DNA of 32,959 nt from Legionella drancourtii LLAP12 (GTDB lineage Bacteria; Pseudomonadota; Gammaproteobacteria; Legionellales; Legionellaceae): assembly GCF_000162755.2 (NCBI RefSeq), contig NZ_JH413832.1:71697-104655 (forward strand), given 5' to 3'. Positions 1,002 through 19,021 of this stretch are shown piece by piece. The first letter of the stretch is position 1, and each line of letters opens with the position of its first letter. A program made the translations under genes and the position numbers. The notes under the pieces were generated by a model. That model made no database searches, was not told where the DNA came from, and saw nothing but the letters and a program-made list of their open reading frames with translations.

Positions 1002-1059
1002 ATTAACTTGAGGTTTAGGTAACGCTTTATTTCACATCGATGACTCACCTTAAGTTAAT
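1002..1059. terminator. Inverted repeat between convergent genes, possible bidirectional terminator
   Basis: ATTAACTTGAGG at 1002-1013 is matched by CCTTAAGTTAAT at 1048-1059, a 12-bp inverted repeat with one mismatch and a 34-base loop. It lies between the convergent stop codons of the small membrane gene and fliP and runs into the fliP stop. No T-tract follows on either strand, so intrinsic termination is uncertain. Confidence 0.3.
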
Positions 1060-1780
1060 GGAAACTGCCCACTAAAGCTTGCACCACTAAATCCCATCCA
1101 TCGATTAAAATAAATAATAAGATCTTGACGGGCAAAGAAATGCTCATTGGCGGCATCATCATCATGCCCACTGTCATTAAGATTCCTGAAACAATTAGAT
1201 CAACCAATAGAAACGGTAAAAAAATCATAAAGCCAATTTGAAACGCGGTTTGTAATTCGCTTAATAAAAAGGCAGGGATGAGTTGATAGAATTTAATTTT
1301 TTCCGCAGAAGAGGGCATGGGTTCCTTGGCTAATTGCAAAATGACGTTCATGTCTTTTTCTCGCGTTTGTTGCAACATAAATTTTTTTAATGGTTTTATT
1401 GCATTATTCAAAGAGGTTTCTGTATTCATTTGATGCGCTTCGTACGGTAGATATGCCTCGTTATAAATTGTTTTGGCCACGGGCATCATCGTAAATAAAG
1501 TCAGGAATAAGGACAAACTAATAATGACAGTATTGGGTGGGGTCTGTTGTAAGCCTAATGCATTACGCAACATCGAAAGGACAACCACAATTCGTGTGAA
1601 TGAGGACAACATGATTAAAATACTAGGCGCCAAACTTAACACAGTAAGCACGGCAAAGGCTTGCAGAGCAGGGGATATATTATCCTGCTCCAAATGGATA
1701 GGGCCGATGTTTGTTCCTGCTAGGCAGGCTAAAGGGGCGCTTAATAAAATAAACGTGACAATAAATTGTTGAATCTTCAT
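1055..1780 (-). CDS. fliP: Flagellar-type export apparatus protein FliP
   Basis: FliP is a core membrane subunit of the type III export gate and assembles with FliQ and FliR. The 241-residue product matches the family in length and layout: a cleavable signal peptide ending near LACLAG, then the conserved FAVLTVLSLAPSILIMLSSF and TRIVVVLSMLRNALGLQQ(T)P segments, a periplasmic loop with PLKKFMLQQT, and C-terminal membrane helices around DLIVSGILMTVGMMMMPP. It is the last gene of the 24-gene operon. Its ATG overlaps the end of fliO by 4 bp, which suggests translational coupling. In many gammaproteobacteria fliP is followed by fliQ and fliR, but here those two genes open the operon about 17 kb upstream. 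Confidence 0.97.
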   Translation of the reverse strand: MKIQQFIVTFILLSAPLACLAGTNIGPIHLEQDNISPALQAFAVLTVLSLAPSILIMLSSFTRIVVVLSMLRNALGLQQTPPNTVIISLSLFLTLFTMMPVAKTIYNEAYLPYEAHQMNTETSLNNAIKPLKKFMLQQTREKDMNVILQLAKEPMPSSAEKIKFYQLIPAFLLSELQTAFQIGFMIFLPFLLVDLIVSGILMTVGMMMMPPMSISLPVKILLFILIDGWDLVVQALVGSFH

Positions 1781-2328
1781 AAGGAAGGTTTTCCCTCGTG
1801 TAAGGGGTGAATGGCCAGAGCATTTTGATTATCGGCAATTAAAAAACGTTGACCTTGGTAATCAAGCACATAGATTTGCGTTTTATGGTTAATGGGGATT
1901 TTTTCAATAATCAGGTTTTTGCCGTTGTTCGTAGTTAAGCCCTTTGATTTTTTGGCTAGAACAAGTAGGGCGACTAATAAAATAGCAAGCACTAATAGGT
2001 AGGGAAACCAATGTACTGTACTTAGCGGTTCTTTTTTAAAAGCTAACGTACTTTGCGCATGCAATACGCTCGATAAAAAAAATAAAACCGTGGATTGGGC
2101 TATACGCCATAGTGGCGCCGTATAGCGAAGGCTTTTTTTTGATCGTTCGGATTGATGAAGCGTTTTAGCGCTGTCTCGAAGCATTGTTCGTCTTGGCGCC
2201 AGGTTTTGATACGGTATAAATGCCTCCTTAGCTCGAACGGGGCTGGAGGGCCTTAACGGTTTTTGATGGCCATGGGTTATATGGCCCAATACTGTGCTCA
2301 CATTCCACAATAAAACTTGGTCAATCAT
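1777..2328 (-). CDS. fliO: FliO-like export protein with an in-frame repeat in its N-terminus
   Basis: FliO assists assembly of the FliP-FliR export gate. The identification rests on position between fliN and fliP, one strong membrane helix (about residues 105-125, FPYLLVLAILLVALLVLA) followed by a KKSK basic stop, and a small cytoplasmic domain with the FliO-like pattern IEKIPINHKTQIYVLDYQGQ. The ORF is 183 residues, starts at an ATG overlapping fliN by 4 bp, and carries an odd first 70 residues. Residues about 30-63 are the translation of a palindromic repeat found elsewhere in the window. A signal-peptide-like segment (VLFFLSSVLHAQ) follows the repeat, so the ancestral start was probably near there. 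An internal ATG at codon 49 could also be used. Whether the long form is made and works is unknown. Confidence 0.8.
   Translation of the reverse strand: MIDQVLLWNVSTVLGHITHGHQKPLRPSSPVRAKEAFIPYQNLAPRRTMLRDSAKTLHQSERSKKSLRYTAPLWRIAQSTVLFFLSSVLHAQSTLAFKKEPLSTVHWFPYLLVLAILLVALLVLAKKSKGLTTNNGKNLIIEKIPINHKTQIYVLDYQGQRFLIADNQNALAIHPLHEGKPSL
2141..2240 (+). repeat. Palindromic repeat (family A) inserted inside fliO
   Basis: About 100 bp with inverted ends (CGTTCGGATTGATGAAGCG at the left; the reverse complement of the right end reads CCCGTTCGAGCTAAGGAGG). Four landmarks, CGTTCGG (2144), AGCGCTGTCT (2167), GTCTTGGCGC (2190) and GGTATAAATG (2213), recur in the same order and with identical 23-base spacing in the copy at 22327. 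It keeps the fliO frame open. The ends resemble the short palindromic intergenic repeats common in bacterial genomes. Confidence 0.8.
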
Positions 2329-2630
2329 GAATAAATTTCCGTAATCTGTACTGCAAAATGATCTTCATGGCTCATTAACTCCCCACGTGCAATAACGCGC
2401 TCATTAAGCACAATCTCTACAGGCTCATGAGTCTTTTGTTCCAAGTGCAATTCCTGTCCCGATTTAAGTTCTTTCAACTCGGCAATCGTCAGATTTAAAG
2501 TGCCAATACGCACGGTACATTGCACTTCAATATCCCCCACTAAACCCAAATAATTTTTATTAATGAACTGTCCTTCCGTTTGTTGCGGTGGGTGTTCCGT
2601 TAAATTTACTTTTTTTACCGTAATACTCAT
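2325..2630 (-). CDS. fliN: Flagellar C-ring protein FliN (SpoA domain)
   Basis: FliN forms the base of the cytoplasmic C-ring and docks the FliH-FliI ATPase complex to the export gate. The 101-residue product is almost entirely one SpoA domain: GDIEVQCTVRIGTLNLTIAELKELKSGQ, a short hydrophilic turn, then EIVLNERVIARGELMSHEDHFAVQITEI. Length and motifs fit FliN or its injectisome relative SctQ-C. It overlaps the upstream fliM-like gene and the downstream fliO by 4 bp each. Because FliN serves export as well as rotation, its retention beside a reduced FliM is compatible with an export-only machine. Confidence 0.93.
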   Translation of the reverse strand: MSITVKKVNLTEHPPQQTEGQFINKNYLGLVGDIEVQCTVRIGTLNLTIAELKELKSGQELHLEQKTHEPVEIVLNERVIARGELMSHEDHFAVQITEIYS

Positions 2631-3331
2631 GATGACCTCTTTAATACAATTGATTTATGGTGCGCGGAGTAACCTAATTCTGCTTGTGCCAATAGCTCAT
2701 TTCCACAGATTAGTCTTAGGGGCGTACTTAATGGGTGAGTGGTTGAGAGTACGTCACCGACTTGTATGCCCGCTAAATGGTTTACTGATAATTTACTAGG
2801 GAGTAATTCCAGACACAGCTTAACCGTATGCTCTGCTAAAGCCTCATCCAGAGAGTCTAGCATCACCAGCGTTTTCTTCTTTGGCAATTGTTGATAGACC
2901 CAATTTGGATTTAGGGCCAGGGTAAAATGACTTTGCGCACAACTAAGGCTTAGTAACAAACTGGTCGAGCCAGCATAAAACCAGTCGGAAATTTCGCCAG
3001 TATTTTGCTGCAGCGTACACAGTTCGCTTTTGCACAAGGCACTTAGTAAGCTCAGCCCAAGTTTTTGGCTGGTGGCATGAAAACTGGGTTTATCACAATT
3101 AAATAAAGCGTAATTGAGCACCGTTAAATAATCGCCTGCAACCATGGCTAAATCATCACTCGCTTCCTGTAGTCTTTGCGCCTTGAGCACCTTGTAGTCT
3201 TTGGGGGTTGGGCTTAGTTGCAGACTAAGCGGCATGAGCGCGTATTCTTCATTCCAATCCGCTACGACCTGACTAAAATGTTGATTTAGCGCCTGCAGTT
3301 CGGAGGCATTAATTAAGCGATATGGCTTCAT
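2627..3331 (-). CDS. Short FliM/SctQ-like C-ring protein
   Basis: This 234-residue protein lies just before fliN, where fliM belongs. Its C-terminal portion (about residues 165-232: VKLCLELLPSKLSVNHLAGI, then VGDVLSTTHP and LICGNELLAQAELGY) has the pattern of a SpoA domain. Canonical FliM is about 330 residues, starts with an EIDALL-type peptide that binds phospho-CheY, and has a CheC-like middle domain containing GGxG. Neither the peptide nor a GGxG motif is visible here. In size and layout it looks more like SctQ (YscQ/HrcQ) of injectisomes. I infer a C-ring scaffold for export without chemotactic switching. It overlaps flgE and fliN by 4 bp each. Confidence 0.7.
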   Translation of the reverse strand: MKPYRLINASELQALNQHFSQVVADWNEEYALMPLSLQLSPTPKDYKVLKAQRLQEASDDLAMVAGDYLTVLNYALFNCDKPSFHATSQKLGLSLLSALCKSELCTLQQNTGEISDWFYAGSTSLLLSLSCAQSHFTLALNPNWVYQQLPKKKTLVMLDSLDEALAEHTVKLCLELLPSKLSVNHLAGIQVGDVLSTTHPLSTPLRLICGNELLAQAELGYSAHHKSIVLKRSS

Positions 3332-4638
3332 GATTTAGATTCCAATTCTTCTAATAATTGCTTGTCTATGTCCATGATTTGCGAACAGGCCTGGAACATT
3401 CTTTGTAAAACAACGATGTTCGCAAATTCGGCAGTGGAGTCGACGTTGGAGGCTTCTAATTCATTTGCTCTAATGCATTCAAAACCATTGTTATTCGGTC
3501 GCCCATAATGAATGCCTCTATTGGTTTTTGCCCGGAAAAAATTATCTTGGGTTTGGATAAGGTTATTTTCCATGTCATCGAAGCGCGCAAGACCAACATG
3601 AATGCCTTTAATAGTTTGTCCATTATCATAGTAATAGGCTATTTGCCCTTCCTCATCGAAGGACCAATAACTTTGTTTGCCTACGCCATAGCCATCATTG
3701 TAGTCAATTTCGATGTTCGTTCGTTTTTCATTAGAAAATGCACCTTCTACTGTGTCTAGTTGCACGGAATTAGTACTACCATTATGTGCGCTTCCAAAAT
3801 AAATATTAACTTGTTTGCCATTTAACCCAAATTGAATGCTGTCTTTTCCAGGTTCTGCTCCTGAACTAGAATAAGCAAACTCTATTTTTTGATCGTAATA
3901 AGGAGTTATATCTACATCTTTATCGTCACAATGAACATCCTCTAATACCCAAAATTTTTCTAGGTTATACTGTTCTCCCAAAGGCGGTTCATTTTTAAAT
4001 TCAAAGGTGACTTTATGCGCTTTGCCTTGGGCATCGTAAATTTTATCAAGCGTTAAGACCACATTTTCATATTTATTTTTTTTCTCAGTTGGAGCTTTAG
4101 GTGTGGGATCCGGTATGTTGGGATCGGGTATGTTGGGGTCGGTATTTTTTTTCTCATCGATTAGATGAGCAACAAAACTTCCTTTGAGAAAAATATCACG
4201 ACTTGCTTTCCCGGGCGTCGTTTGCGGGCCTTTCTCATGAATCGGTGCCAGATTTCCTGCGCTATCATAACCCTGGACTTGCCCGCCTGTTTTGCGATCA
4301 ATTAAGATCCCATCTTCAAAGTTAAAATGCCCATCACGGGTATAAACAAATTCATTATTTTTTAATTTAACCACAAAAAAACCATGACCTACGATTGCCA
4401 AGTCAGAGTCCCCCATGCCTTTTAAATAATTCCCCGGGCCATAATTAGTCCGCATCCCACTAACACGAACACCATGCCCCATTCCTTCTTCACCCTGGCC
4501 ATTGCCTAATGAGGAATAGAAGACATCGCTGCGTTTAAAGCCATGACTTTGCATGTTGGCGATGTTGTTTGAGGTATTTTGTAAGCCGTAGCTCGCGGCA
4601 AGCATTCCTGATAAGCTGCTATAGTAGGTATTACTCAT
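3328..4638 (-). CDS. flgE: Flagellar hook protein FlgE
   Basis: FlgE polymerises outside the cell to form the hook and is exported by the type III apparatus. The N-terminus (SSLSGMLAASYGLQNTSNNI, then ANMQSHGFKRSDVFYSS) is the classical rod/hook helix and NxxANxxxxGFK motif. The C-terminus carries the partner helix (ELEASNVDSTAEFANIVVLQ). At 436 residues it is within the FlgE range. The middle domain contains a short DPNIP tandem repeat and a proline-rich linker near residues 167-183 (DNA about 4108-4142), which looks recently expanded. It follows flgD with no gap and overlaps the fliM-like gene. No hook-associated protein (FlgK or FlgL) is encoded nearby. Confidence 0.93.
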   Translation of the reverse strand: MSNTYYSSLSGMLAASYGLQNTSNNIANMQSHGFKRSDVFYSSLGNGQGEEGMGHGVRVSGMRTNYGPGNYLKGMGDSDLAIVGHGFFVVKLKNNEFVYTRDGHFNFEDGILIDRKTGGQVQGYDSAGNLAPIHEKGPQTTPGKASRDIFLKGSFVAHLIDEKKNTDPNIPDPNIPDPTPKAPTEKKNKYENVVLTLDKIYDAQGKAHKVTFEFKNEPPLGEQYNLEKFWVLEDVHCDDKDVDITPYYDQKIEFAYSSSGAEPGKDSIQFGLNGKQVNIYFGSAHNGSTNSVQLDTVEGAFSNEKRTNIEIDYNDGYGVGKQSYWSFDEEGQIAYYYDNGQTIKGIHVGLARFDDMENNLIQTQDNFFRAKTNRGIHYGRPNNNGFECIRANELEASNVDSTAEFANIVVLQRMFQACSQIMDIDKQLLEELESKS

Positions 4639-5010
4639 TTATTTTTCTACCTCATAAATATGGTTTACGTCTACCCAGGGCTCGCCGCCATTTTCCCTTT
4701 GGATTCTTACTTCGGGCATTTGCTCCTCTGTAAAACGGATGGCTTCTACCAGGCCGTATCCCTCTTCGCCAGTGATTTTCACACTATGACCTAATAAACT
4801 GAGCCCACGATTGCCATAGTGTAATTGTATTAACTTCATTAAATTTTCATTGCTTGCGCTTGCTTGCTGCAATGTTGAAAACTGGGCCATTTGTGCCATG
4901 AATTCACGGTTGTCTATTGGTTTTAAGGGGTCTTGATAGGTTAGTTCTTGCATGAATACTTTCATGTAATCCGCCTGGCCTACATCCACGCCATTAACAG
5001 GTTCAGTCAT
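4639..5010 (-). CDS. flgD: Short hook-capping protein FlgD
   Basis: FlgD is the scaffold cap under which hook subunits assemble. The N-terminal half has the family signature: DYMKVFMQELTYQDPLKPID, then NREFMAQMAQFSTLQQ. After this comes only a small beta-rich segment (LLGHSVKITGEEGYGLVEAI, ending VDVNHIYEV) similar to the start of the usual C-terminal region. At 123 residues it is about half the size of enterobacterial FlgD (about 230), lacking most of the FlgD Ig/tudor-like portion. Short FlgD versions exist in other bacteria, so this need not be a defect. It overlaps the fliK-like gene by 8 bp and abuts flgE, a sensible partnership for hook building. Confidence 0.9.
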   Translation of the reverse strand: MTEPVNGVDVGQADYMKVFMQELTYQDPLKPIDNREFMAQMAQFSTLQQASASNENLMKLIQLHYGNRGLSLLGHSVKITGEEGYGLVEAIRFTEEQMPEVRIQRENGGEPWVDVNHIYEVEK

Positions 5011-5701
5011 TGTTTACTCCATTAATAATTAAACGGCTTAATACCAAGCCTTTTTGCTTTAAATGATTCTGGATTAGTTGTATGAGTTTTTTTTGTTCTT
5101 TTTTGTCGCATGAGTGCAGATTTAAGGTGAGTTCTGCGTGTTCGCCTTGGATAAATAAGTGGTTATTTTTAAATTGGATGCGGCGATTTAGACTCTCGTT
5201 TACCCATTTTATGCTGTTGTCTTGGTTGTTTGTCACCTGGGTCGTTTTTTTATTGCTGGTGGCCAGGGGGAGCGTTGATTGCTCTAAAGCTTGTATTAAC
5301 GCATGAATTAACGGCGCGAATTTTTTTGCGCAGGCATCATAGTTTTCTCTATAGGGGCCGAGGTCATTTAATTGCGAGCGCTCTTCCATCAGAGCTGTTG
5401 GTTCTTGTTTGGTTGTTGTCGCAAAAATCGACGTTTCTGTAGTGTCCATTATTGGTTGTTGTTGTCGGTTTTCTTGGGGGAGGGCATCGAAATGCAAACG
5501 GGATTGTTGCAATTGTGTTTGGTGCTGCCAATAGTATTCATCCCCAGTGCTTTGTTGGGTGGGACTAATTAATTGTTGCCAGTTGGGTTCTTTGACCCAG
5601 TCTTCAGATTCACCTAACCAATTGCCAAAATTGGCAGGGTGTGGTTTTTTTGTTTGCGCTTGCTGCTCGCTAGTCCACGGAGCTAATTCGTCAATTTTCA
5701 T
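5003..5701 (-). CDS. fliK: FliK-like hook-length control protein
   Basis: The assignment rests mainly on position between fliJ and flgD. The 232-residue product is hydrophilic and glutamine-rich over its first 150 residues, as expected of an exported ruler. It ends in a compact domain (about 170-228: HLFIQGEHAELTLNLHS, then KKLIQLIQNHLKQKGLVLSR) that follows the FliK/SctP C-terminal pattern. The start is set at the ATG at 5701 because its ATGA overlaps the fliJ stop and an AAGGGA Shine-Dalgarno lies 7 bases upstream; a start 27 bases earlier lacks both. FliK measures hook length and switches substrate specificity through FlhB. With no filament gene here, what the switch would admit is an open question. 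Confidence 0.72.
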   Translation of the reverse strand: MKIDELAPWTSEQQAQTKKPHPANFGNWLGESEDWVKEPNWQQLISPTQQSTGDEYYWQHQTQLQQSRLHFDALPQENRQQQPIMDTTETSIFATTTKQEPTALMEERSQLNDLGPYRENYDACAKKFAPLIHALIQALEQSTLPLATSNKKTTQVTNNQDNSIKWVNESLNRRIQFKNNHLFIQGEHAELTLNLHSCDKKEQKKLIQLIQNHLKQKGLVLSRLIINGVNND

Positions 5702-6114
5702 AGTGATTCCCTTTTTTGGATAACCCATTCGTCCAGTGCATTATCATGTGCTTTTTTCTGTTGTTCGTGGTGACTTGATTCTTCGCGCTCTAAGTACTTT
5801 TCCAACATCTTTAATTCGGTTTTGACGCGTTGTATTTTTTCCTTTAATTTGCGTTCGACATCCTGATGATTTTTTAGTTCGGCGCTTAACTCATCTTTTT
5901 TGTTTGCTTCCTGGGTCATGAAGTTCAGTCGATTCATTTCCAGCTCAGGGTTAATCACTAAAGACTTTGGGCGCGCTTGATTAATGAGGCCATCAATCGC
6001 CTGAATTTGCGTGGTTAGCGACTGAGACTGGGTTTGTGACTCGTGTAAATGTAGATTAAGTTCATTAAGTTGCCAGTTTAATTTGCTCATCAGGGCATTG
6101 AGTGGCTGATTCAT
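5698..6114 (-). CDS. fliJ: Flagellar export chaperone/stalk protein FliJ
   Basis: FliJ is a coiled-coil protein that sits in the centre of the FliI hexamer, links the ATPase to FlhA and resembles the gamma subunit of F1-ATPase. The 138-residue product is almost all charged helix, with heptad-like spacing throughout (for example LNWQLNELNLHLHESQTQSQ, and a long KDELSAELKNHQDVERKLKE helix). Sequence conservation in this family is low, so the call depends on composition, length and position directly after fliI. It overlaps fliI and the fliK-like gene by 4 bp each. Confidence 0.85.
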   Translation of the reverse strand: MNQPLNALMSKLNWQLNELNLHLHESQTQSQSLTTQIQAIDGLINQARPKSLVINPELEMNRLNFMTQEANKKDELSAELKNHQDVERKLKEKIQRVKTELKMLEKYLEREESSHHEQQKKAHDNALDEWVIQKRESL

Positions 6115-7403
6115 CGTAAAATATCCTTAAAGCGGTGCATGAGTTCATCAAAGGATAAAAAGTGGTTTTTATCTTGAATGAGGAGCTGGTTAATGGCCGG
6201 AAGTCGTTCAACTGCCTCATCTAAAAGCGCATTATTTCCTGGTTTATAAGCGCCCACTTCAATCAAATCCTTATTCTGCTGATAGAGGCTGAGCGTGGCG
6301 ATGATTTGATTGATAAGCTGTTGTTCCTCTGGCGCGACTATGTGTTTGGCCAGACGTGAGACACTTTGCAGTATCGATATCGCGGGATAATGCCCTCGTT
6401 GCGCTAATTCTCGGGTCAGCACAATATGACCATCTAACAAGGCACGCATGTGATCGGCTAGTGGTTCATTAAAGTCATCGCCTTCGACAAGTACCGTGTA
6501 TAAGGCACTGATACTTCCTTGCTCTTTAAAATTTCCCGTACGCTCAATGATTCCTGGGAGCAAGGCAAAAACACTGGGGGTATAGCCACGAGCAGTTGGT
6601 GGTTCGCCTAAGCTGAGACTGATTTCTCTTTGTGCCATGGCAAAACGGGTAATTGAATCCATAAACAACATGACCTGCTTACTTTGCTGGCAGAAATATT
6701 CAGCAATGGCCGTTGCTGTATAAACCGCCTGGCGGCGCATTAAGGCGGATTCATCACTGCAGGAGACGACCAATACGGATTTTTTTAAGGTAGCCTCATC
6801 CAGATGATTCACGATAAAGTCATTTACTTCGCGGCCACGTTCGCCAATCAGGGCAATGACGTTAATCTCACTTTGCAGATTTTGCACCATGGTTCCGAGT
6901 AAGGTACTTTTACCAACACCACTGCCGGCGAAGATGCCTATTCGTTGTCCTTTACCTAGAGGAAGGAGGCTGTCTATGGCTTGTATTCCGGTAGTTAGGC
7001 GTTCGTTGATGGGCATTCTGGTTAATGGATTGATTTTTTTATTTTTAGTTAAAACCCGTTGTGTGTATGTTAGCTTAATTTGTTCATCAATGGGTTGGGC
7101 AAAGGCATCGACGACATGTCCAAGTAGTGCTTCGCCAACCGCAATGCTAAGATGATTCCCGGTGGCTCTTACTTTGTAGCCCATACATACCTGGACTGAA
7201 TCATATGGCATCAGGTAGACTTTGCCTTGCTCAAAACCAATAACCTCTGCTTGCATGACGGTTTGCTGGTTTTGATCGAGAATGTCACAGACCTCACCGA
7301 TAAATGTTTGGGGTGGGCCATTGGCAACCAGTTTTAAGCCCACAAATTGCTCAATTTCACCTAAGCGCTCGATTGCTTGCAGAGTGTTAAGCCAGGGATG
7401 CAT
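6111..7403 (-). CDS. fliI: Flagellar type III export ATPase FliI
   Basis: FliI is the cytoplasmic ATPase that energises unfolding and delivery of export substrates. The 430-residue protein shows the Walker A loop AGSGVGKST at residues 159-167, the ALIGERGREVNDF segment at about 184-196, Walker B VMLFMDS at 244-250 and the conserved SLGEPPTARGYTPSVFALLP(G) region. The catalytic site looks intact, so the export motor is probably functional. It is slightly shorter than E. coli FliI (457) because of a short N-terminus. It overlaps fliH by 17 bp and fliJ by 4 bp, matching the physical FliH-FliI-FliJ complex. Confidence 0.97.
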   Translation of the reverse strand: MHPWLNTLQAIERLGEIEQFVGLKLVANGPPQTFIGEVCDILDQNQQTVMQAEVIGFEQGKVYLMPYDSVQVCMGYKVRATGNHLSIAVGEALLGHVVDAFAQPIDEQIKLTYTQRVLTKNKKINPLTRMPINERLTTGIQAIDSLLPLGKGQRIGIFAGSGVGKSTLLGTMVQNLQSEINVIALIGERGREVNDFIVNHLDEATLKKSVLVVSCSDESALMRRQAVYTATAIAEYFCQQSKQVMLFMDSITRFAMAQREISLSLGEPPTARGYTPSVFALLPGIIERTGNFKEQGSISALYTVLVEGDDFNEPLADHMRALLDGHIVLTRELAQRGHYPAISILQSVSRLAKHIVAPEEQQLINQIIATLSLYQQNKDLIEVGAYKPGNNALLDEAVERLPAINQLLIQDKNHFLSFDELMHRFKDILR

Positions 7404-8025
7404 GCTGTCCTCGGTGTTTGAGTTGTATAAGCACTTCTTTTAACTTGTCGATTTGTTTTTCGATGCTGGCATCAAAAACACCATGATTCGTTTTTATCAC
7501 ATAGCCCCCTAAAATAAGTGACTCATCGCTTTTGATTTTTAAACCATTTAAATGAGTTGCATCTAATTGAATGGCGCCATTTTGCAGGGCCGTAATTTCT
7601 TGTGGGTGCAGGCACAGTTCAACATGGTGCTTATTATTTAATTGGCCAAGTACCTGATTAATTTGTTGTCCCAATGCTTGGGTATCTTTTTGTTGCTCAA
7701 TAAAAAATTGTTGGGTGATAAGCAAAACAATATCGGCAATTTCATTGTTTAAGTCGCTACGATTTTGGGCGATGGCTTGAGGAATTGCTGCAAGGCTTGC
7801 CTGCAATTGCTTTTTGAGTTGCTCTAGTTCTTTTTCATTATGGGTACGTTCTTCATTTTTTCCTGCTAAATATCCTTGCTCATAAGCTTCTTTTTTGAGC
7901 TGCTCTATATGTGCTTCATCGACTTGGCGAATTGACTTTTCTGGTTCAGGGGCAAGTTCTACGTTGGGCTGATTTAAAAATACTTCCTCATTACTGATGA
8001 CGGCTTTTTTGTATAATTTAGCCAT
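7387..8025 (-). CDS. fliH: Flagellar assembly protein FliH
   Basis: FliH is the peripheral stalk that holds the FliI ATPase and anchors it to FliN. The 212-residue product has a charged N-terminus, a central coiled coil including the GY(L)AGKNEE segment (EAYEQGYLAGKNEERTHNEK), and a C-terminal FliH/SctL-type domain (IADIVLLITQQFFIEQQK, then LGGYVIKTNHGVFDASIEKQ). Spacing of Gly and Glu in the central helix and the closing V-x-DASI-x-x-Q pattern fit the family. It overlaps the preceding 145-residue gene by 8 bp and fliI by 17 bp. Confidence 0.92.
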   Translation of the reverse strand: MAKLYKKAVISNEEVFLNQPNVELAPEPEKSIRQVDEAHIEQLKKEAYEQGYLAGKNEERTHNEKELEQLKKQLQASLAAIPQAIAQNRSDLNNEIADIVLLITQQFFIEQQKDTQALGQQINQVLGQLNNKHHVELCLHPQEITALQNGAIQLDATHLNGLKIKSDESLILGGYVIKTNHGVFDASIEKQIDKLKEVLIQLKHRGQHASLA

Positions 8026-10514: not shown

Positions 10515-10855
10515 TATTGATTATTCCCTTGTAATGCGAGTTTCATGATGGCTAATTTTTGATTTAATCCTTTTACAAGCGCGCGGTAGTGGGTCATATT
10601 TTGCACGTTTAAGGTCATTTGCTCATCAATAGTCGATTGATGATCGCTTAGCTGGTAGTGGGGGGGAATGATCGCTAAATCACTTGCTTCGCTGCTTAAA
10701 TGATTTTCATTTAATTGCTGCTCAAAATTAACTTCCAGCGTTTGATAGCCTGGGGTATTGATATTGGCAACATTATTGGCAATTGCGGTTTGACGCATTA
10801 AGGTTGCATCTAAAGCCAGGCTGATTAATTGTATGGTTGCATCTGAGTTCATCAT
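10514..10855 (-). CDS. flgB: Proximal rod protein FlgB
   Basis: FlgB is a proximal rod subunit. The 113-residue product has the rod-family N-terminal motif (LMRQTAIANNVANINTPGYQ) and the short FlgB-type C-terminal helix (LNVQNMTHYRALVKGLNQKL). Length is slightly below the E. coli protein (138). Two adjacent ATG codons could start it (10855 or 10852); both are compatible with the 6-9-base gap after flgI. The gene sits after flgI rather than at the head of a flgBCDEF operon as in enterobacteria. Confidence 0.96.
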   Translation of the reverse strand: MMNSDATIQLISLALDATLMRQTAIANNVANINTPGYQTLEVNFEQQLNENHLSSEASDLAIIPPHYQLSDHQSTIDEQMTLNVQNMTHYRALVKGLNQKLAIMKLALQGNNQ

Positions 10856-10861
10856 AGTTCC

Positions 10862-11974: not shown

Positions 11975-12579
11975 TACACTAATCCTATAAACGACAGGAT
12001 TTTGTAAATGTAATTACGATCTTGGGAGTTCGAGACAGAACCGGCACCTGTATAGGTAATATGTGCTTGTGCCAGGCGTGTCGATAAGATGGTATTTTGT
12101 GGACTAATGTCTTCAGGTCGAACCACGCCACTTAGCAAAATTCTTTGTTGTTCACCATTAATGGTAATCATCTGCAATCCTTCAACGAGGTAGGTATTAT
12201 TGGGAAATACTTCTTTAATGCGCACCGTTAATGCAGCTTTGATTTTGCCATTACGCCCAGTTTTGGCGGCGGTACTTCCTTTGCCTTCTAAACCAAATTC
12301 CACCTTATGGTTATCGCGGTTGTAGCCAGCTTCTAAGACTGTTTTTATCTCTTTATGCGAGGAAAGATCAGCACTGGTTTGGGCATTGGATGTTTCAAGG
12401 ACAATAACGGTGAGTACGTCCCCAGGCAAAGTTGCTTTGCGATCGGCAATTAAGGGGCGATAAATGTCTTCATCAAATAGGTTGACTGCCCAGGTTGTTG
12501 GCGATGCTGTGATAATAAGCAAGAGGCCTATTATTAATGTTGTCGGATGTGGTTGACCATATGCAAAAAATCTTTTCAT
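11974..12579 (-). CDS. flgH: L-ring protein FlgH, without a lipobox
   Basis: FlgH forms the outer-membrane bushing around the rod. The 201-residue product has the family core: LPGDVLTVIVLETSNAQTSA near residues 52-71, an LTVRIKEVFPNNTYLVEGLQ segment, and GVVRPEDISPQNTILSTRLA near 150-170. FlgH is normally a lipoprotein with a Cys in an LxxC lipobox. This protein has a hydrophobic leader (LIIGLLLIITASPTTWA) but no cysteine anywhere, so it cannot be lipidated in the usual way and probably uses signal peptidase I. It overlaps flgA by 4 bp and flgI by 1 bp. Confidence 0.94.
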   Translation of the reverse strand: MKRFFAYGQPHPTTLIIGLLLIITASPTTWAVNLFDEDIYRPLIADRKATLPGDVLTVIVLETSNAQTSADLSSHKEIKTVLEAGYNRDNHKVEFGLEGKGSTAAKTGRNGKIKAALTVRIKEVFPNNTYLVEGLQMITINGEQQRILLSGVVRPEDISPQNTILSTRLAQAHITYTGAGSVSNSQDRNYIYKILSFIGLV

Positions 12580-13472
12580 TCTACAATCTCCGCTTGATTT
12601 TTGCCGGTCACTGTGGCGACAAAATATTTATTGGTTTGCGGATTTTGCATCCGAACGGCCTGGCCTAGATAAGCATCACTTTGTGCTAAGGCTTCCATCA
12701 TTATGGAAATTCCATGTTGTCGTACATTCACGTTTACTTTGTGTCCTTGCATTACCTCAGGTGTAGTACGCACATCGTCATGAGTTAGAATCTGATTTTT
12801 ATTTATTGAGCGTGTGAGCCAAACTCTTTGGGGGAATTGGGTTAATGGAGGATTTTTTAAGCCGGCAATATTGCGTCGTTGCAACGCTATGTCCTCGGAA
12901 TGAAGCAGTGTATGCTGTTTTATTTTATGTTGCGCCACGAATACAGCCTGATAGGCTTTTACGGCAAACCACACAGGAATCGAGCGTTTTTTAGAGTTTA
13001 AATGAAGGCATACACGTTTTGCTATGGGGTATTTCTTTGGCACTTGCACGCTAAAATCAGTTAAGGGAATATCACTGTCTTTTAACAAGGTTTTACTGTT
13101 TAAGAGCACCTGACTGTAGGCTTGACTTTTAAGTTGCTGAGCTAAAGCCTGGCGGGCTTTATTTAAAAGATCCTGAGCCTTAGTACGGACTATGATGCGG
13201 ATAATGGCTGTATTTTTTCCTTTCCATTGGTAGCTAAATACGCCTACTTTATTTTGTAGCCAGGTAATGATTTGTTTTTTGTTGAGGCGAGCGCCGTCTC
13301 GTGGTTGGCTATCCAATATGATTTTGCTCCAATGATGTGGATCTGGAGTAATCAGCAGTAAATCGCCAACACGCTTAGCCTGCGGTGTAATATGCGCCTG
13401 GAAACGCAGTACCGTTTCTGCCTGCGCTGGGAATATGGCCAATAAAAAAACTAAATTAATCGCGAATTTCAT
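12576..13472 (-). CDS. flgA: P-ring assembly chaperone FlgA
   Basis: FlgA is the periplasmic chaperone that helps FlgI assemble into the P ring. The 298-residue product has a signal peptide (FAINLVFLLAIFPAQAE), a variable N-terminal domain and a C-terminal SAF-type domain. In the latter, VAQHKIKQHTLLHSEDIALQ, LTRSINKNQILTHDDVRTTP and VMQGHKVNVNVRQHGISI follow the family pattern. It is longer than E. coli FlgA (219), with extra N-terminal sequence. It overlaps flgG by 17 bp and flgH by 4 bp. Confidence 0.92.
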   Translation of the reverse strand: MKFAINLVFLLAIFPAQAETVLRFQAHITPQAKRVGDLLLITPDPHHWSKIILDSQPRDGARLNKKQIITWLQNKVGVFSYQWKGKNTAIIRIIVRTKAQDLLNKARQALAQQLKSQAYSQVLLNSKTLLKDSDIPLTDFSVQVPKKYPIAKRVCLHLNSKKRSIPVWFAVKAYQAVFVAQHKIKQHTLLHSEDIALQRRNIAGLKNPPLTQFPQRVWLTRSINKNQILTHDDVRTTPEVMQGHKVNVNVRQHGISIMMEALAQSDAYLGQAVRMQNPQTNKYFVATVTGKNQAEIVE

Positions 13473-14232
13473 TAGTCAATTTTTCCAGTTCATCCGCAAT
13501 TTGTACGGCTTTGGCATTGAGTTGGTAAACCCGTTGCGCCATAGTAAGTTGCATGAGCGAACTCACCATATCCACATTTGAGCCCTCTACTTGATATTGT
13601 GCCAAGGTGCCTAAACCACTACTGCCGGGATTGTCTATGAGTGGTTCGCTGGATTCATCGGTTAAGGTATAGGTTCCAGAACCTACCGGATTTAAGGTTT
13701 CGGGGTTAATAAATTTAGCTAATTGAATGGTCCCTAAAAGTTGCGGTTCAGGCTCATCAACCAGCGTTACCTCAACATTGCCATTGGTGTGAATGGTTAG
13801 TTGGGTGAAATCTTCGGGAATCTGAATATTATCTGCCAGTCTTAATCCTTCTTGCGTGGCAAGGTAATGATCGGCATCAACACTCAAGGCTGAGTTACGC
13901 GTATAAGCAATGCTGCCATCGGTATTAATTACCTGATAAAAACCTGAGCCATTGATGGCTACATCATTCCAGTTATTACTTGCTTTGAGTGGCCCATCAG
14001 TAAAGTCTTTACTCGATTTATAGAGCGCTGTGCCTAGTCCTAATTTGGCACTAGGCTGGTTATTAAATAAGGACTCTTCACCGTGAATGTTTTGATAAAG
14101 CACATCTTCAAACGTTAGCTTAGTGGCCTTGTAATTGGCGGTATTTAAATTGGCAAGGTCATTGGCAATGCGGTCAATGTGATATTCTTCTGCTTTAAGA
14201 CCACTGGCCGCAATAGCAAGTGCATTAGACAT
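13456..14232 (-). CDS. flgG: Distal rod protein FlgG
   Basis: FlgG builds the distal rod that passes through the P and L rings. The 258-residue product has the FlgG N-terminus (ALAIAASGLKAEEYHIDRIA, NDLANLNTANYKATKLTFED, then VLYQNI), the FYQVINTDGSIAYTRNSALS strand region, and a C-terminal VDMVSSLMQLTMAQRVYQLN helix. Length is as expected (E. coli 260). It follows flgF with an 8-bp overlap. The FEDVLYQ motif after the N-terminal helix separates it from flgF and flgE. Confidence 0.95.
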   Translation of the reverse strand: MSNALAIAASGLKAEEYHIDRIANDLANLNTANYKATKLTFEDVLYQNIHGEESLFNNQPSAKLGLGTALYKSSKDFTDGPLKASNNWNDVAINGSGFYQVINTDGSIAYTRNSALSVDADHYLATQEGLRLADNIQIPEDFTQLTIHTNGNVEVTLVDEPEPQLLGTIQLAKFINPETLNPVGSGTYTLTDESSEPLIDNPGSSGLGTLAQYQVEGSNVDMVSSLMQLTMAQRVYQLNAKAVQIADELEKLTNEIRD

Positions 14233-14938
14233 TTCCTTCTCCTAACTGATTAATGGCAGTGGCTAATAAATTATCTGCGGTACGCATGATTCGTTGATTG
14301 GCTTCAAAATGGCGTGAGGTTTTGACCATATCCATCATTTCATCGATGGATTTCACATTGGATTGCTCAATAAATCCTTGATGTACTTGCGTGTTTGCGC
14401 CAACAGGAATGGGGGAGTCATCACATTGATAGAGGCCATTGCCGCTGTAACGCAACAATTGCGGCTGTTTAAATTGTACAATGTTTAATTGATCGACTTT
14501 ATGGTGGTCAATAAATAGCGCACCTTGGGCATCGACTGTAAACGCGTGATCATCTACTTTAATCACCCCACCTTTTCCCAAAACGGTTTCTCCCGTTGCC
14601 GTTGTTAATTCGCCTTGATTATTTACTTGAAAATCACCACGTCGCGTATAAAAAATGCCTTGCTCGCCTTGTACTTGAAAATACCCCTCACCACATAAGG
14701 CAAGATCGGTGGGATTTTTAGTTTGATTTATGAGTCCTTGCGCTTTTAAATGCGATTGCTCTAGTTGTTGGGCAACCTGATTCACATTCGCTTGCAAATG
14801 CATATCAAAGCCGGCGTTTTCAATTAATTGTCGTTTAAAGCCAGGGGTGTTCATGTTGCTGATATTTTGACTGATGGATTGCAATTTTAATTGATCATAA
14901 TCCATGGCCAGTTGCGTTGCAGTAATTGCATCAAACAT
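14225..14938 (-). CDS. flgF: Proximal rod protein FlgF
   Basis: FlgF is a rod protein closely related to FlgG. The 237-residue product has the rod N-terminus (LKLQSISQNISNMNTPGFKR), the GEGYFQVQGEQGIFYTRRGD core, and a C-terminal IDEMMDMVKTSRHFEANQRI helix. Its position directly before flgG and its slightly shorter size support FlgF over FlgG. It begins 9 bases after the flhA stop, the largest gap in the operon, and overlaps flgG by 8 bp. Confidence 0.92.
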   Translation of the reverse strand: MFDAITATQLAMDYDQLKLQSISQNISNMNTPGFKRQLIENAGFDMHLQANVNQVAQQLEQSHLKAQGLINQTKNPTDLALCGEGYFQVQGEQGIFYTRRGDFQVNNQGELTTATGETVLGKGGVIKVDDHAFTVDAQGALFIDHHKVDQLNIVQFKQPQLLRYSGNGLYQCDDSPIPVGANTQVHQGFIEQSNVKSIDEMMDMVKTSRHFEANQRIMRTADNLLATAINQLGEGNV

Positions 14939-14947
14939 ACGATTTCC

Positions 14948-16951
14948 TTATTTCACGATACCAAAAGACTCCACCTGAATAGTGATGGGAATTTCACTCA
15001 TAGCCAGCACCGTCAGGTGAGGAATCACTCTTTGTGTTAATTGTTTTATGTGTCTTCTTAGCATGGGTGAACACAGCAAAATAGGGCGCTTACGTTCGCC
15101 TAACATTTGTTCGACCTGATTTGCCAAGGATGTAATTAAGTTTTCTGTGACCTTGGGTTCCAGTGCTAAATAATCTTTAGCGCTAATACTTTGGTTTAGC
15201 TTTTGTTCCAGCGATGCTTCTAGCGTGAGTACATATAAATTGTTTTGATTGCCTAATAGTTTTTGGCAAATAGGCATCGCTAAGCCTGCTCTGACCAGTT
15301 CGGTAAGCTGAACAGGATCTGGCATTTGTTTGGCATGTTCCAGTAATAACTCCATAATTTGTTGCAAATGGCGGATGGAAACCTTTTCTTGCAATAAGAT
15401 TTGCAGGATACGTTGAACATGACTTAAGGGCAGAAGCGCTGGGATTAGTTCTTCGCTTAGGGCTTTTATCCCGGGTTGAAGCAATAGTTTTTCTGTTTCT
15501 TCGCGAGTTAAGAGCTCAGCAACATGGGCATGAATGAGTTCATTAAGGTGAGTCGTTAATACAGTTATTGGTTCGCAAATCGTATAACCTGCATCAGTTG
15601 CTTCATGTTTATTCTGCGGCTCTATCCAGCAAGCAGGTAAACCATAACTGGGGTCACGTACTTCTAATCCAGTAATTAAGGCCTGGTCCTTATTTTTATT
15701 ACGCGCAGAAAAAATGGCCAATACCTTATCCATATGCAGTGGATTGGTACCGGAAGAATTGCCTTGTATGGCAATTTGGTACAAGGGGTAGTTTAGTTTT
15801 TTATCATTTTTTATTTTCACTTCCGGTAAAACAAAACCCAAATCAAAGGCAATGCGTTCGCGAATTTGCTGAACAACGCGGAGTATCTGTTCTTCATGGG
15901 CTAATAAGGTGGTATATAGTTCTTTATTTAGATTAATTTCAATGGGATGAATACGAATTTTATCGTATAAATTTTCTTCTTCGGCTTCGGCAATTTCTTC
16001 TTTATTTGCCTTCATGGCAAAAAAAGTAATTAAAACGAAGAGTCCTAAAATGAGCAGTACAGGGACAAGAGGAATCCCCTTTAAAAATAAAAGACAGCTT
16101 AGGCTCAAACAAACCAACATTAAGCTTTTGGGGTAGGCGCTAATTTGTTTGGCAACTTCTGAACCTAAATGGGCATCCGTTGCCGCTCGAGTGACGATGA
16201 TCCCGGTGGCCGTGGAAATAATTAAGGCGGGGATCTGGGTCACTAAACCATCGCCAACTGTAAGCAAGGTATAGGTCTGAATTGACTCGGATAAGCTAAA
16301 TCCTTTTTGCAATAAACCAATGGCAAAGCCACCGATGATGTCCACTAAGATGATGAGGATTCCGGCAATCGCATCGCCTTTAACAAATTTACTGGCGCCA
16401 TCCATGGCCCCATAAAAATTAGCTTCTTTTTCAATTTGTGCACGTCGGAATTTCGCTTCATCTTGCGAAATACTGCCCATATTCAAATCGGCATCAATAC
16501 TCATTTGTTTGCCGGGCATACTGTCTAAAGTAAAACGTGCCGCGACTTCCGCAACGCGTTGAGCCCCATTGGTTACTACGATAAATTGTACAATAATCAG
16601 GATTAAAAAGACCACTAAACCCATGACGTAATTGCCATGAATAACATAATGCCCCATGGCTTCAATTACTTTACCGGCATGGGCATCAGATAAAATTAGC
16701 CGCGTTGCTGAAATATTAAGTGCCAGCCGAAATAGGGTGGAAATTAGTAAGAGGGCAGGAAAGGTCGAAAAACTTAAGGGTTTATCGGTGTAAAAAGTTA
16801 ACAGTAAAATAGTTAATGCCCAGCTGAAATTAATGATCAGCAATAAATCCAAAAGTTCGGCCGGAATCGGTATAAATAAAATAAAGAGGATACTCGTGGC
16901 AAAAGCAATCATAATCATTTCGCTGCTGTTGCTGAAGAAGTTTGTTTTCAT
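14948..16951 (-). CDS. flhA: Export gate protein FlhA
   Basis: FlhA is the major export-gate component. Its membrane domain conducts protons and its cytoplasmic ring receives substrates from FliI, FliJ and chaperones. The 667-residue product has about eight hydrophobic segments in the first 320 residues and the FHIPEP-family signature around residues 131-160 (QRVAEVAARFTLDSMPGKQM, then SIDADLNMG), followed by EAKFRRAQIEKEANFYGAMD and GASKFVKGDAIAGI. The C-terminal domain is complete (QPGIKALSEELIPALLPLSH, IRHLQQIMELLLEHA). It overlaps flhB by 4 bp. The export gate therefore looks intact. Confidence 0.98.
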   Translation of the reverse strand: MKTNFFSNSSEMIMIAFATSILFILFIPIPAELLDLLLIINFSWALTILLLTFYTDKPLSFSTFPALLLISTLFRLALNISATRLILSDAHAGKVIEAMGHYVIHGNYVMGLVVFLILIIVQFIVVTNGAQRVAEVAARFTLDSMPGKQMSIDADLNMGSISQDEAKFRRAQIEKEANFYGAMDGASKFVKGDAIAGILIILVDIIGGFAIGLLQKGFSLSESIQTYTLLTVGDGLVTQIPALIISTATGIIVTRAATDAHLGSEVAKQISAYPKSLMLVCLSLSCLLFLKGIPLVPVLLILGLFVLITFFAMKANKEEIAEAEEENLYDKIRIHPIEINLNKELYTTLLAHEEQILRVVQQIRERIAFDLGFVLPEVKIKNDKKLNYPLYQIAIQGNSSGTNPLHMDKVLAIFSARNKNKDQALITGLEVRDPSYGLPACWIEPQNKHEATDAGYTICEPITVLTTHLNELIHAHVAELLTREETEKLLLQPGIKALSEELIPALLPLSHVQRILQILLQEKVSIRHLQQIMELLLEHAKQMPDPVQLTELVRAGLAMPICQKLLGNQNNLYVLTLEASLEQKLNQSISAKDYLALEPKVTENLITSLANQVEQMLGERKRPILLCSPMLRRHIKQLTQRVIPHLTVLAMSEIPITIQVESFGIVK

Positions 16952-18003
16952 TGCTCCTTCCTCCGACGCGCATAAATTTCTTTGAAAATGGCAGCTGCAA
17001 AGGGATAGAGTTCTTTATTGATCCATTGATTGAGCTCAACAGAATGATAAAGCAGGCGGGCAAAGCTTTTATTCTCGATGATGGGAACGCCATGTTTTCT
17101 CGCCAATTCTTTCACTTGCGACACCATTTCACCTTGTGCTTTACAGACCACTTTAGGTGCGGGCATGCTGGTACGATCGTATTTTAAAGCGATGGCTAAA
17201 TGAGTGGGGTTGGTAATGATTACATCGGCTGTTTTAACTTGTTTTAATGAGGCTGTTTTTTGGCGTAATTGTTGTTGCAACTGTTTGATCTTCGATTTTA
17301 TTTTCGGATCGCCTTCTCGCTGTTTGTACTCATCTTTAACTTCTTGTTTGCTCATGCGTTGGTCTTTAGCAAATTTCCAACGCGTATAAAATTTATCAAG
17401 GACTGCCAGCAGTGAGAGTAAAAGGAGCAATTGAAAAATAAGGCTTAATAAAAAATGCATCATAAGGCCTGGATGCTGAGCGGTAGGTGTTAAGGCTAAT
17501 GGTAAAATATTGGTAAGTTGATGCTTGAATGCAAAAAATAAGAAAATAAACGTACTCATCAATTTCAGGGTACTTTTTGCCGCTTCAAAACAGGTTTTTA
17601 TGGAAAATAGTTTTTTAAATCCTTGCACGATATTTAAGCGCTTAAAATCAGGAACAAGTGGCGTAGTCGACCACACGATTCCCGATTGGGTCAAATTAGC
17701 AAGGATAATGGCCAGGACACCAGCTAAGGCAAAAGGAAGCCACTGATGGAGGAGTTGCATTAGGATAAATTGGTGTAAATGGTTGATGTTATCCAGACTA
17801 AATTGCATTTGTGCCGCAAGATAAAGAATATGGCGCAGCATTTCTTGAATTTCATGTAACTGCTTGGGCCATAGGGCGCTCATCATGCCTAACAGTACCA
17901 ACAATGAAATACAGGTTGTCAATTCAGCGCTTTTGCTAACTTGTCCTTTTTCTTTGGCTTTTTGTAATTTATAAGGCGTTGCCTTTTCTGTTTTTTCACT
18001 CAT
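16948..18003 (-). CDS. flhB: Export specificity switch protein FlhB
   Basis: FlhB is an export-gate protein whose self-cleavage at NPTH allows the switch from hook to late substrates. The 351-residue product starts MSEKTEKATPYKLQKAKEKG, the classic FlhB beginning. The ATG at 18003 is chosen because it fits this motif and overlaps the fliR stop as ATGA; a start 30 bases upstream adds an unrelated leader. Four membrane segments lie between about 30 and 205, followed by DEYKQREGDPKIKSKIKQ, and the intact cleavage motif NPTH at residues 265-268. The switch therefore appears functional, together with the fliK-like gene. Confidence 0.97.
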   Translation of the reverse strand: MSEKTEKATPYKLQKAKEKGQVSKSAELTTCISLLVLLGMMSALWPKQLHEIQEMLRHILYLAAQMQFSLDNINHLHQFILMQLLHQWLPFALAGVLAIILANLTQSGIVWSTTPLVPDFKRLNIVQGFKKLFSIKTCFEAAKSTLKLMSTFIFLFFAFKHQLTNILPLALTPTAQHPGLMMHFLLSLIFQLLLLLSLLAVLDKFYTRWKFAKDQRMSKQEVKDEYKQREGDPKIKSKIKQLQQQLRQKTASLKQVKTADVIITNPTHLAIALKYDRTSMPAPKVVCKAQGEMVSQVKELARKHGVPIIENKSFARLLYHSVELNQWINKELYPFAAAIFKEIYARRRKEQ

Positions 18004-18749
18004 GACATAATTTCCTGCCAAGTGTGAAAACATTGTGAAAATACGGTAGTGGTTAGAGGATTGATGTAATTTAACATCATGAATAATAAAAATAAACCGA
18101 ACAGTATTTTTATGGGTAAGGTAAGAAAGTAGGTGCTGACTTGTGGCATATTACGGGTAATCAGGGCGCCACATAAATCGAGAGCAAGCAGGGCAATGAT
18201 GATGGGGCTTGCGATCATAAAGGCCATGCTAAACATAAAGCTAAATTGCTTAATTACCGGTGTGAAACCCGCGAATAAGCTTAAGGTTCCCGGTGGAATA
18301 ATGATAAAAGAATAAGCCAGGCCTTTAAATAACCACTGATGCCCATCCAAACTAAAAAAGAATAAGACCGCCAGCATGGATAATAAATGACTGGTTAATG
18401 GTTCCTGGCTGTGTTCACTGGGATTAAAAACGGCGGTAGCATTGTATCCTGTTTCACTATCAATGAGTTGTCCTGCTATTTGAAATATGGCAAAGGCGGC
18501 ATACAGGCTAGTAGCTAAAATTAAGCCATTAGCAAATTCGGCAAGACCACCAAAGAGAATGGCATTATTGCTTAGCTCTGATTTTTGCGGGACGTAGTTA
18601 GCCAGCAGCATGCTCAAGGTGAAAATAAGGATTAGGCGTGCATGAATCGGCAGCTGACGTATTGCTTGAATGGGGGTGAACAGGAGTACAGTGCCTAAGC
18701 GAATTGTGATGAAAAATAAGCTAGTCAGCCAGGGCAGGGAGATGGTCAT
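18000..18749 (-). CDS. fliR: Export apparatus protein FliR
   Basis: FliR is an inner-membrane subunit of the FliPQR core channel. The 249-residue product is very hydrophobic with about six membrane segments and family features: an N-terminal FFITIRLGTVLLFTPI segment, an IPIHAR-like LPIHARLILIFTLSMLLANY stretch, and an FQIAGQLIDSETGYN(A)T region equivalent to the conserved GxxIDxQxGF motif. The C-terminal LPIKILFGLFLLFMML helix is also typical. It overlaps fliQ and flhB by 4 bp each. Order fliQ-fliR-flhB-flhA is conserved in many flagellar and injectisome loci. Confidence 0.96.
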   Translation of the reverse strand: MTISLPWLTSLFFITIRLGTVLLFTPIQAIRQLPIHARLILIFTLSMLLANYVPQKSELSNNAILFGGLAEFANGLILATSLYAAFAIFQIAGQLIDSETGYNATAVFNPSEHSQEPLTSHLLSMLAVLFFFSLDGHQWLFKGLAYSFIIIPPGTLSLFAGFTPVIKQFSFMFSMAFMIASPIIIALLALDLCGALITRNMPQVSTYFLTLPIKILFGLFLLFMMLNYINPLTTTVFSQCFHTWQEIMS

Positions 18750-19021
18750 GGTTTTATCGCCCCAGGAATGCTTACAAAGATATGTTGCGCAAACTCAACC
18801 AATGAATGCAACATCCAGCTCCCACAAAGCATGAGCATCAGTACTACGGCCAAAATTTTGGGGACAAAACTTAAACTAGAATCTTGGATTTGCGTGACAA
18901 CTTGAAGTATTGAGATAAGCAAACCACTAATTAGGGCGACTAGAACGACAGGGGCGGCAATCAATAAGGCATGCCACAGTAATTGTTTGCTTAAATAGAT
19001 AGCTAAATCGTTAGACATCAT
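18746..19021 (-). CDS. fliQ: Export apparatus protein FliQ, first gene of the operon
   Basis: FliQ is the small two-helix subunit of the export channel. The 91-residue product has both helices and the central motif: LLIAAPVVLVALISGLLISI, then LQVVTQIQDSSLSFVPKIL. Length is standard (E. coli 89). Two consecutive ATGs (19021, 19018) follow a GGAAAGGG Shine-Dalgarno. The second has the better spacing, so the true protein may begin MSND. It is the first gene of the 24-gene block, with a long AT-rich leader upstream. Confidence 0.96.
   Translation of the reverse strand: MMSNDLAIYLSKQLLWHALLIAAPVVLVALISGLLISILQVVTQIQDSSLSFVPKILAVVLMLMLCGSWMLHSLVEFAQHIFVSIPGAIKP

Follow-up and report, generated by a model that had tools for sequence, protein, structure and literature searches.

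What would a cell do with the genes for a flagellar hook and basal body when the genes for filament and motor do not accompany them? This question is raised by the stretch of DNA analysed in the present study (hereafter the window: 32,959 nucleotides of Legionella drancourtii LLAP12, contig NZ_JH413832.1, positions 71,697-104,655), in which 24 open reading frames (ORFs), all on the (-) strand between window positions 1055 and 19021 and joined by 23 junctions of -34 to +9 base pairs (bp), constitute one hook-basal-body operon. By its gene content we assign it to the little-studied PFS2 locus, which has been reported from Legionella fallonii and L. micdadei as an additional flagella operon without flaA and fliD (PMC4256840, PMC5655016); like the window, PFS2 of Legionella as defined in the latter source holds basal body, export and hook genes. 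In the excerpts of Gomez-Valero 2014 (PMC4256840) and of the Heuner review of 2017 (PMC5655016) that we drew upon, its role was left open between a type III secretion system (T3SS) and a second flagellum. We consider it probable, short of certain, that PFS2 is a non-rotating hook-basal body serving as a dedicated flagellar-type secretion system, which exports a giant Rhs/YD protein and is likely to kill rivals. Computed directly were the operon, its missing motility parts, its presence without a flagellum, its separate lineage, its co-occurrence and linkage with the giant gene, and the exchange of the giants' C-termini. For L. drancourtii the window sequence alone was examined, and the genome-wide counts come from other genomes.

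What, first of all, would the operon build? Pfam and NCBIfam scans of 39 window ORFs (65 ORFs of at least 60 amino acids (aa) were listed, the remainder overlapping the scanned ones) identified the export gate (FliPQR, FlhAB), FliH and FliI, the MS ring, the rod, the P and L rings, the hook and the hook cap, as follows (E, expectation value).

1055..1780, (-): FliP, export gate; Pfam FliP E 1e-75, TIGR01103 over cut-off
1777..2328, (-): FliO-like; TIGR03500 E 2e-4, below cut-off
2325..2630, (-): FliN, C-ring SpoA protein; Pfam FliMN_C E 2e-19
2627..3331, (-): reduced FliM, 234 aa; FliMN_C E 5e-8, model matches FliM C-ring chains E 2e-7
3328..4638, (-): FlgE, hook; TIGR03506 over cut-off, FlgE models below cut-off, Pfam FlgE/F/G domains
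4639..5010, (-): short FlgD, hook cap, N-terminal region only; Pfam FlgD E 6e-15
5003..5728, (-): FliK position, candidate hook-length control; position only
5698..6114, (-): FliJ-like; TIGR02473 E 0.009, below cut-off, and position
6111..7403, (-): FliI, export ATPase; TIGR01026 over cut-off, FliI_clade1 542 bits versus SctN 494, both below cut-offs
7387..8025, (-): FliH; Pfam FliH E 3e-13
8018..8455, (-): FliG-like adaptor without torque domain, 145 aa
8448..9800, (-): FliF, MS ring; TIGR00206 over cut-off
9802..10095, (-): FliE; Pfam and TIGR00205 over cut-off
10092..10514, (-): FlgC, rod; Pfam Flg_bbr_C and Flg_bb_rod, position
10514..10855, (-): FlgB, rod; Pfam Flg_bb_rod, position
10862..11974, (-): FlgI, P ring; Pfam FlgI E 9e-119
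11974..12579, (-): FlgH, L ring; Pfam FlgH E 9e-39
12576..13472, (-): FlgA, P-ring chaperone; Pfam ChapFlgA E 2e-24
13456..14232, (-): FlgG, distal rod; Pfam FlgE/F/G domains, position
14225..14938, (-): FlgF, rod; TIGR02490 best match, below cut-off
14948..16951, (-): FlhA, export gate; TIGR01398 714 bits versus SctV (hrcV) 552, both below cut-offs, and tree
16948..18033, (-): FlhB, NPTH present; family scan and motif
18000..18749, (-): FliR; Pfam Bac_export_1 E 6e-48, TIGR01400 best match, below cut-off
18746..19021, (-): FliQ; TIGR01402 over cut-off

The initial annotation had described these 24 genes on one strand with tight junctions, and this layout was borne out, together with the intact NPTH site of FlhB (at residue 275) and the lack of filament, hook-filament junction, stator, fliA/flgM and chemotaxis genes, families of which there were none among the 39 scanned ORFs. 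Its list of parts, in which length control also figures, holds for gate, ATPase, rings, rod, hook and cap; FliO and FliJ are weak matches, and the FliK of length control drew no relevant family match in the Pfam and NCBIfam scans and is placed by position only, a C-terminal block being conserved among 14 sequences from that position. The annotated FliO of 183 aa probably starts too far upstream, because the orthologous ORFs measure only 109-126 aa in 12 of 14. As for the catalytic motifs claimed for FliI, AGSGVGKS and GERGRE, presumably the usual forms, can be read by eye in the translation, and two motif patterns run on the protein gave no match. The description of the block as devoid of switch parts was too strong, since a FliG-like protein, a reduced FliM and FliN are all present and the switch is reduced rather than absent. 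The 145-aa product of the FliG-like ORF is too short for the C-terminal torque domain and looks like a FliG that lacks it; its counterparts in three genomes outside Legionella (G362, G441 and G406, see below) are 181-202 aa long, and a profile alignment matches these outside proteins to their Legionella counterparts (hhalign probability 91, E 1e-6). The reduced FliM combines a SpoA domain with a FliM-middle-like fold, in a structural model with a mean predicted local distance difference test score (pLDDT) of 75 and a last third of low confidence.

Could such a body still rotate by borrowing the filament, stators and switch of an ordinary flagellum, and so be a second flagellum? We called PFS2 in 143 Legionellaceae genomes by a PFS2-type FliF of at least 295 bits, ordinary FliF scoring at most 140.3 bits, and found it in 35. 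A separate ordinary flagellum accompanies it in 24 of these (canonical FliF, with flagellin, FliG_C and MotB_plug over cut-off, FliG_C at one place in each), which is what favours borrowing; yet canonical FliF is absent from the other 11, in which flagellin, FliG_C and MotB_plug likewise gave no match over cut-off (G029, G063, G064, G065, G067, G115, G129, G134, G135, G136 and G140). Six of the 11 are small (1.3-2.2 megabases (Mb), possibly incomplete) and five (G115, G129, G134, G135 and G136) measure 3.0-3.6 Mb, G115 with a contig of 3.2 Mb; a sub-cut-off flagellin match occurs in G115 and a sub-cut-off MotB match with a stop in G129. Furthermore, PFS2 and the ordinary flagellum were not associated on a LepA DNA tree of 90 genomes with 11 independent pairs differing in PFS2 (1.4 pairs changing the same way, 2.1 the opposite way, p 1). 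With these counts and a FliG-like protein too short for torque, we regard a second flagellum as improbable. The initial annotation had allowed that the locus might simply be the ordinary flagellum in an odd gene order, an account that fails in these relatives, where PFS2 stands either beside a separate flagellar set or without any.

Is it then a decaying relic of a flagellum, kept by chance? Such an explanation would suit the broken or split flhA frames of G004 and G037, and also G115, where extra DNA lies between the fliF and fliG positions and both genes are matched in part only. Against decay stand the ratios of non-synonymous to synonymous substitution (dN/dS), which are well below 1 in every gene tested (0.02-0.40 for 22 and 21 genes in two species pairs, FliQ and FlgB left out) and by which the tested PFS2 genes are judged to be under purifying selection, as well as a gene order common to Legionellaceae and Burkholderiales; a relic is, in our view, very improbable. 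The order is identical in 13 of the 14 Legionella genomes compared, FliQ lying outside the fetched stretch in the fourteenth (G037). A second set comprised 20 loci, from 19 additional genomes and once more from G005: the full 24 genes were detected in 2, FlgA was the sole undetected gene in 9, one to three diverged genes went undetected in 4, contig ends cut the block in 3, and in G140 and G067 it was split, with flhA on another contig. As a separate observation, in L. norrlandica (G004; L019, L024-L026, L186) the PFS2 and ordinary flhA frames are both broken and the frame of the giant gene described below is just 705 aa, so that both systems may be decaying there.

Where else does the operon occur, and is its lineage its own? 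In a draw of 369 genomes of the class, FlhA above 50% identity to that of the window was found, besides G001, in G362, G441 and G406 (the other matches listed reached at most 44%), all three with the same operon gene order. The best three of 473 plasmid records came from Burkholderia ubonensis (pMSMB2035, predicted conjugative), Variovorax sp. PDNC026 and Undibacterium sp. YM2: the first has 23 coding sequences in the same order, FliM and FliN forming one listed coding sequence; the Undibacterium plasmid keeps the order except for FliH, moved to the opposite strand, its FlgI being annotated as two coding sequences; and on the unannotated Variovorax plasmid 13 genes were matched in order. A sigma-70-family gene follows fliP in G441, G406, B. 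ubonensis and Undibacterium, and tetratricopeptide repeat (TPR) genes lie near the operon in G362 and B. ubonensis, with similar-looking ones, by eye, in G441 and G406. In an FlhA tree of 51 rows (13 Legionellaceae, 6 from outside, 30 canonical flagellar and 2 SctV), the PFS2 sequences form one clade (support 100/98) apart from the canonical flagellar and SctV rows, within which the Legionellaceae rows have 100/100 and the six outside rows 93/73; they are separate from Legionella's own flagellar FlhA and do not group with SctV. PFS2 is a separate lineage. Of the checks suggested by the initial annotation, the FlhA tree sets the locus apart and the gene order recurs (whole in 13 of the Legionella genomes above and in G362, G441 and G406, nearly whole on the plasmids of B. 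ubonensis and Undibacterium), and its picture of a flagellum-derived secretion machine ending in a hook finds support, secretion itself being the part that we infer.

If the machine secretes, what would it export? Giant ORFs with N-termini in common adjoin the operon in G083, B. ubonensis, Variovorax, Undibacterium and G362, with lengths of 3,779-12,948 aa (at least 2,391 aa in G362, where a contig end cuts the frame), and fragments with the same N-terminus were later found next to it, at contig edges, in G406 and G441; the giant gene is hence next to the operon in all six outside loci, two of them with such fragments. The giant of the Undibacterium plasmid (L164, L166), of 12,948 aa, is annotated as 'tandem-95 repeat'. 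A profile built from the five linked N-termini, G083 and G362 included (A6), matches 36 of the 143 Legionellaceae genomes. Of the 35 PFS2 genomes 32 are matched, and of the 108 genomes lacking PFS2 only 4 are, a difference with a Fisher p of 4e-24 that makes no correction for kinship; leaving out G083 gives 31 of 34 PFS2 genomes and p 2e-23. The domain is present in 10 of the 11 flagellum-free PFS2 genomes. In the class draw it matches 14 of 369, the top four being the four genomes with PFS2-type FlhA (G362 necessarily so, being in the profile). The association also holds in a phylogenetic test: on the LepA DNA tree, the giant changes the same way as PFS2 in an average of 8.1 of the 11 pairs and the opposite way in 0.0 (median p 0.008), and the ordinary flagellum and the giant gene show none (1.2 same and 1.5 opposite of 8 pairs, p 1). 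This giant Rhs/YD partner of PFS2 is new here; the excerpts of the earlier PFS2 reports contain no mention of the giant Rhs gene, the truncated FliG or relatives outside Legionella (PMC4256840, PMC5655016).

Twenty giants from 19 PFS2 Legionellaceae genomes, taken whole, are 3,687-3,810 aa long. Their common first 120 residues have no Pfam match and no match in the Protein Data Bank (PDB), and scans of the N-terminal parts matched Rhs/YD repeats as well as, past residue 130, minor families. The N-terminus does not appear to be Sec-like, as judged by its lack of a strong hydrophobic stretch (best 12-residue mean 0.4-1.1, and 1.6 in G018, whose called start lengthens the protein by an upstream extension). 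In ten giant pairs the body retains 48-96% identity per 250-residue block; over the last 120 residues identity falls to 14-22% in four pairs (G008/G022, G013a/G013b, G018/G002 and G008/G046) and to 32-49% in four others, and remains at 78-79% in two with a common tip (G131/G129 and G008/G020). Conservation ends at one point in the C-terminal alignment, and the giants have a conserved body with exchanged C-termini. A LysM domain precedes the tip (it passes the Pfam cut-off in G008 and G018 and narrowly misses it in G129 and B. ubonensis), and in 19 of the 20 a small ORF (at least 80 aa, same strand) follows the giant at -35 to +30 bp, an immunity-like candidate. Of 10 loci inspected, 8 (e.g., L222:4537-6150) have immediately before the giant gene, as does G026, a gene for a protein of 450-590 aa, possibly an outer-surface partner of the giant, with a hydrophobic, signal-like N-terminus in the five tested (best 12-residue mean 1.8-2.6) and a He_PIG Ig domain in the one scanned. 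Separately, downstream of the two giants of G013 (L211, L229) there are further small secreted-looking ORFs and fragments, common to other loci, which resemble orphan toxin-immunity cassettes.

Nine C-termini were scanned for families, and an SLT transglycosylase was matched in one, a VgrG3-like C-terminal domain (which we take to be a wall-cutting T6SS, that is, type VI secretion system, domain) in one, pesticin, which is lysozyme-like, in one and the PT-TG pre-toxin in two. These tips bear on the thought that PFS2 is an injectisome-like system sending effectors into amoebae or other eukaryotic hosts, a thought encouraged by an apparatus that is a type III export machine and by the life of Legionella in protists. 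Yet the families matched by 3 of the 9 candidate cargo tips are wall-cutting or T6SS-type antibacterial ones, the small ORF adjoins nearly every giant, FlhA and FliI score nearer to flagellar than to injectisome families, and no secretin or needle family was matched in the 24 operon ORFs or the scanned flanking ORFs, the scope of that search. Delivery into eukaryotic hosts is, on balance, hard to credit.

Several observations weigh against the reading of PFS2 as an exporter of the giant. All support for it comes from computation on sequences, and 4 of the 9 scanned tips match no family. Three PFS2 genomes (G003, G037 and G063) have no giant match; conversely, G026 lacks a PFS2 FliF and has an intact-looking giant, a strong match accompanied by its usual partner, and the remaining matches without PFS2 are a 68-aa fragment in G062 and weak ones in G030 and G089. 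Ten class genomes carry weak giant N-termini (E 3e-15 to 5e-4) and no PFS2-type FlhA, so that this domain family also occurs apart from PFS2; in the five of these ten that were inspected, the gene before the giant is a different one, of 631-1,246 aa. On a protein LepA tree, which has less power, 5.3 of 8 pairs change the same way (median p 0.06). In the 10 loci from nine Legionellaceae genomes inspected other than G083, the giant is not linked to the operon, and, as the idea of the giant was raised by the five linked loci, linkage there is not an independent test. The unlinked loci and the few giants without PFS2, along with hook, ring and gate genes kept under purifying selection, would suit a hook-only surface organelle (an adhesin or pore) or a general export channel for other proteins, with the giant Rhs merely carried by the same lineages. 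This is unlikely, in our judgement, given that giant and PFS2 changed together in most independent pairs and oppositely in none, and that the two are physically linked in the six outside loci (two with contig-edge fragments) and in G083. Apart from this, a second and weakly similar giant family (L342, L344, L345, L346 and L347, from four genomes with no FlhA match), found after a gene of 1,078-1,246 aa, hints at another delivery route.

How, then, might PFS2 work as a secretion system for the giant? The operon would build export gate, ATPase, C-ring scaffold, rod, P and L rings and hook, its own torque domain, stator and filament missing, so that the 24 genes would assemble a channel across both membranes whose outer end is an open hook. 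The gate would then export the giant Rhs/YD protein as its main cargo, encoded mostly elsewhere in Legionellaceae and beside the operon outside them; this cargo would bear the common N-terminal domain instead of a Sec-like signal, followed by Rhs repeats, LysM and an exchangeable C-terminal toxin. As some toxin tips match peptidoglycan-cutting families, rival bacteria would be the likely target and their killing the likely use. The assembly of the hook, the passage of the giant through it, its target and the killing are what we infer. A wider proposition, namely that PFS2 represents a class of secretion machine in its own right, in which a hook-ended flagellum without a motor delivers giant Rhs toxins (about 3,700-13,000 aa) with wall-cutting and other tips to rival bacteria, and which has spread across Legionellaceae, Burkholderiales and others of the class, partly on plasmids, seems to us evenly balanced between true and false. 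A candidate cargo is in any case now given for a locus whose purpose stayed open in 2014 and 2017. If the proposition is true, PFS2 would be an independent living parallel of the step from flagellum to injectisome, and flagella would have become protein-delivery machines at least twice, once in the injectisome without hook and rings and once in PFS2 without torque and filament; to our knowledge, it would also be the first flagellar-type system dedicated to interbacterial toxins.

The operon is flanked in the window by a 192-aa ORF of no known family at one end and by three tRNA genes plus a dgt-like gene with an HD domain at the other, with gspLM, mltB, lepA, lepB and rnc beyond. The 192-aa ORF (423-1001), hydrophobic and convergent with fliP, is kept beside the operon in L001, L002, L003 and G018 at 47-52% identity; no counterpart was detected in the remaining fetched stretches, of which some stop near fliP. 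The tRNA genes (Ala, Glu, Glu; 19599-19924) lie between fliQ and the dgt-like gene and are overlapped by an 82-aa ORF (19596-19844) that is probably spurious; this interval holds varying genes in relatives and may be an insertion spot. Just before fliQ, a leader with repeated ATGGA/GGA motifs (window 19022-19150 and 12 relatives) is partly conserved by eye; we presume that it could be a putative control site of the CsrA type.

To which known system, finally, does PFS2 come closest? With the gammaproteobacterial flagellum it has in common the gate, ATPase, rod, ring and hook homologues, and by FlhA it is a sister clade; unlike that flagellum, the PFS2 block is one 24-gene operon with a torque-less FliG-like protein and with no filament, junction, stator or chemotaxis gene. 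Buchnera carries filament-less flagellar hook-basal bodies on the surface of the endosymbiont, which are a reduced ordinary flagellum, whereas PFS2 is a separate lineage that occurs beside or without a flagellum. Non-flagellar T3SSs, including the motility-less Myxococcales form in the part of Abby and Rocha (2012, PMC3459982) drawn upon here, resemble PFS2 in having flagellum-derived export without motility parts; unlike them, PFS2 keeps rod, P and L rings and hook, has no secretin in the block, and has an FlhA on the flagellar side of SctV. Known Rhs toxins are delivered by the T6SS, by toxin complexes (Tc) or by the type VII secretion system (T7SS), and PFS2, if our reading is true, would be an extra route for their delivery without a T6SS. 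Like the giants, the Rhs polymorphic toxins described in the excerpt of Zhang (2012, PMC3482391) combine Rhs/YD repeats with an exchangeable C-terminal toxin and an adjacent small immunity-like gene; unlike known Rhs toxins, the giants have an N-terminal domain of their own, a LysM before the toxin and a tie to a flagellar-type operon.

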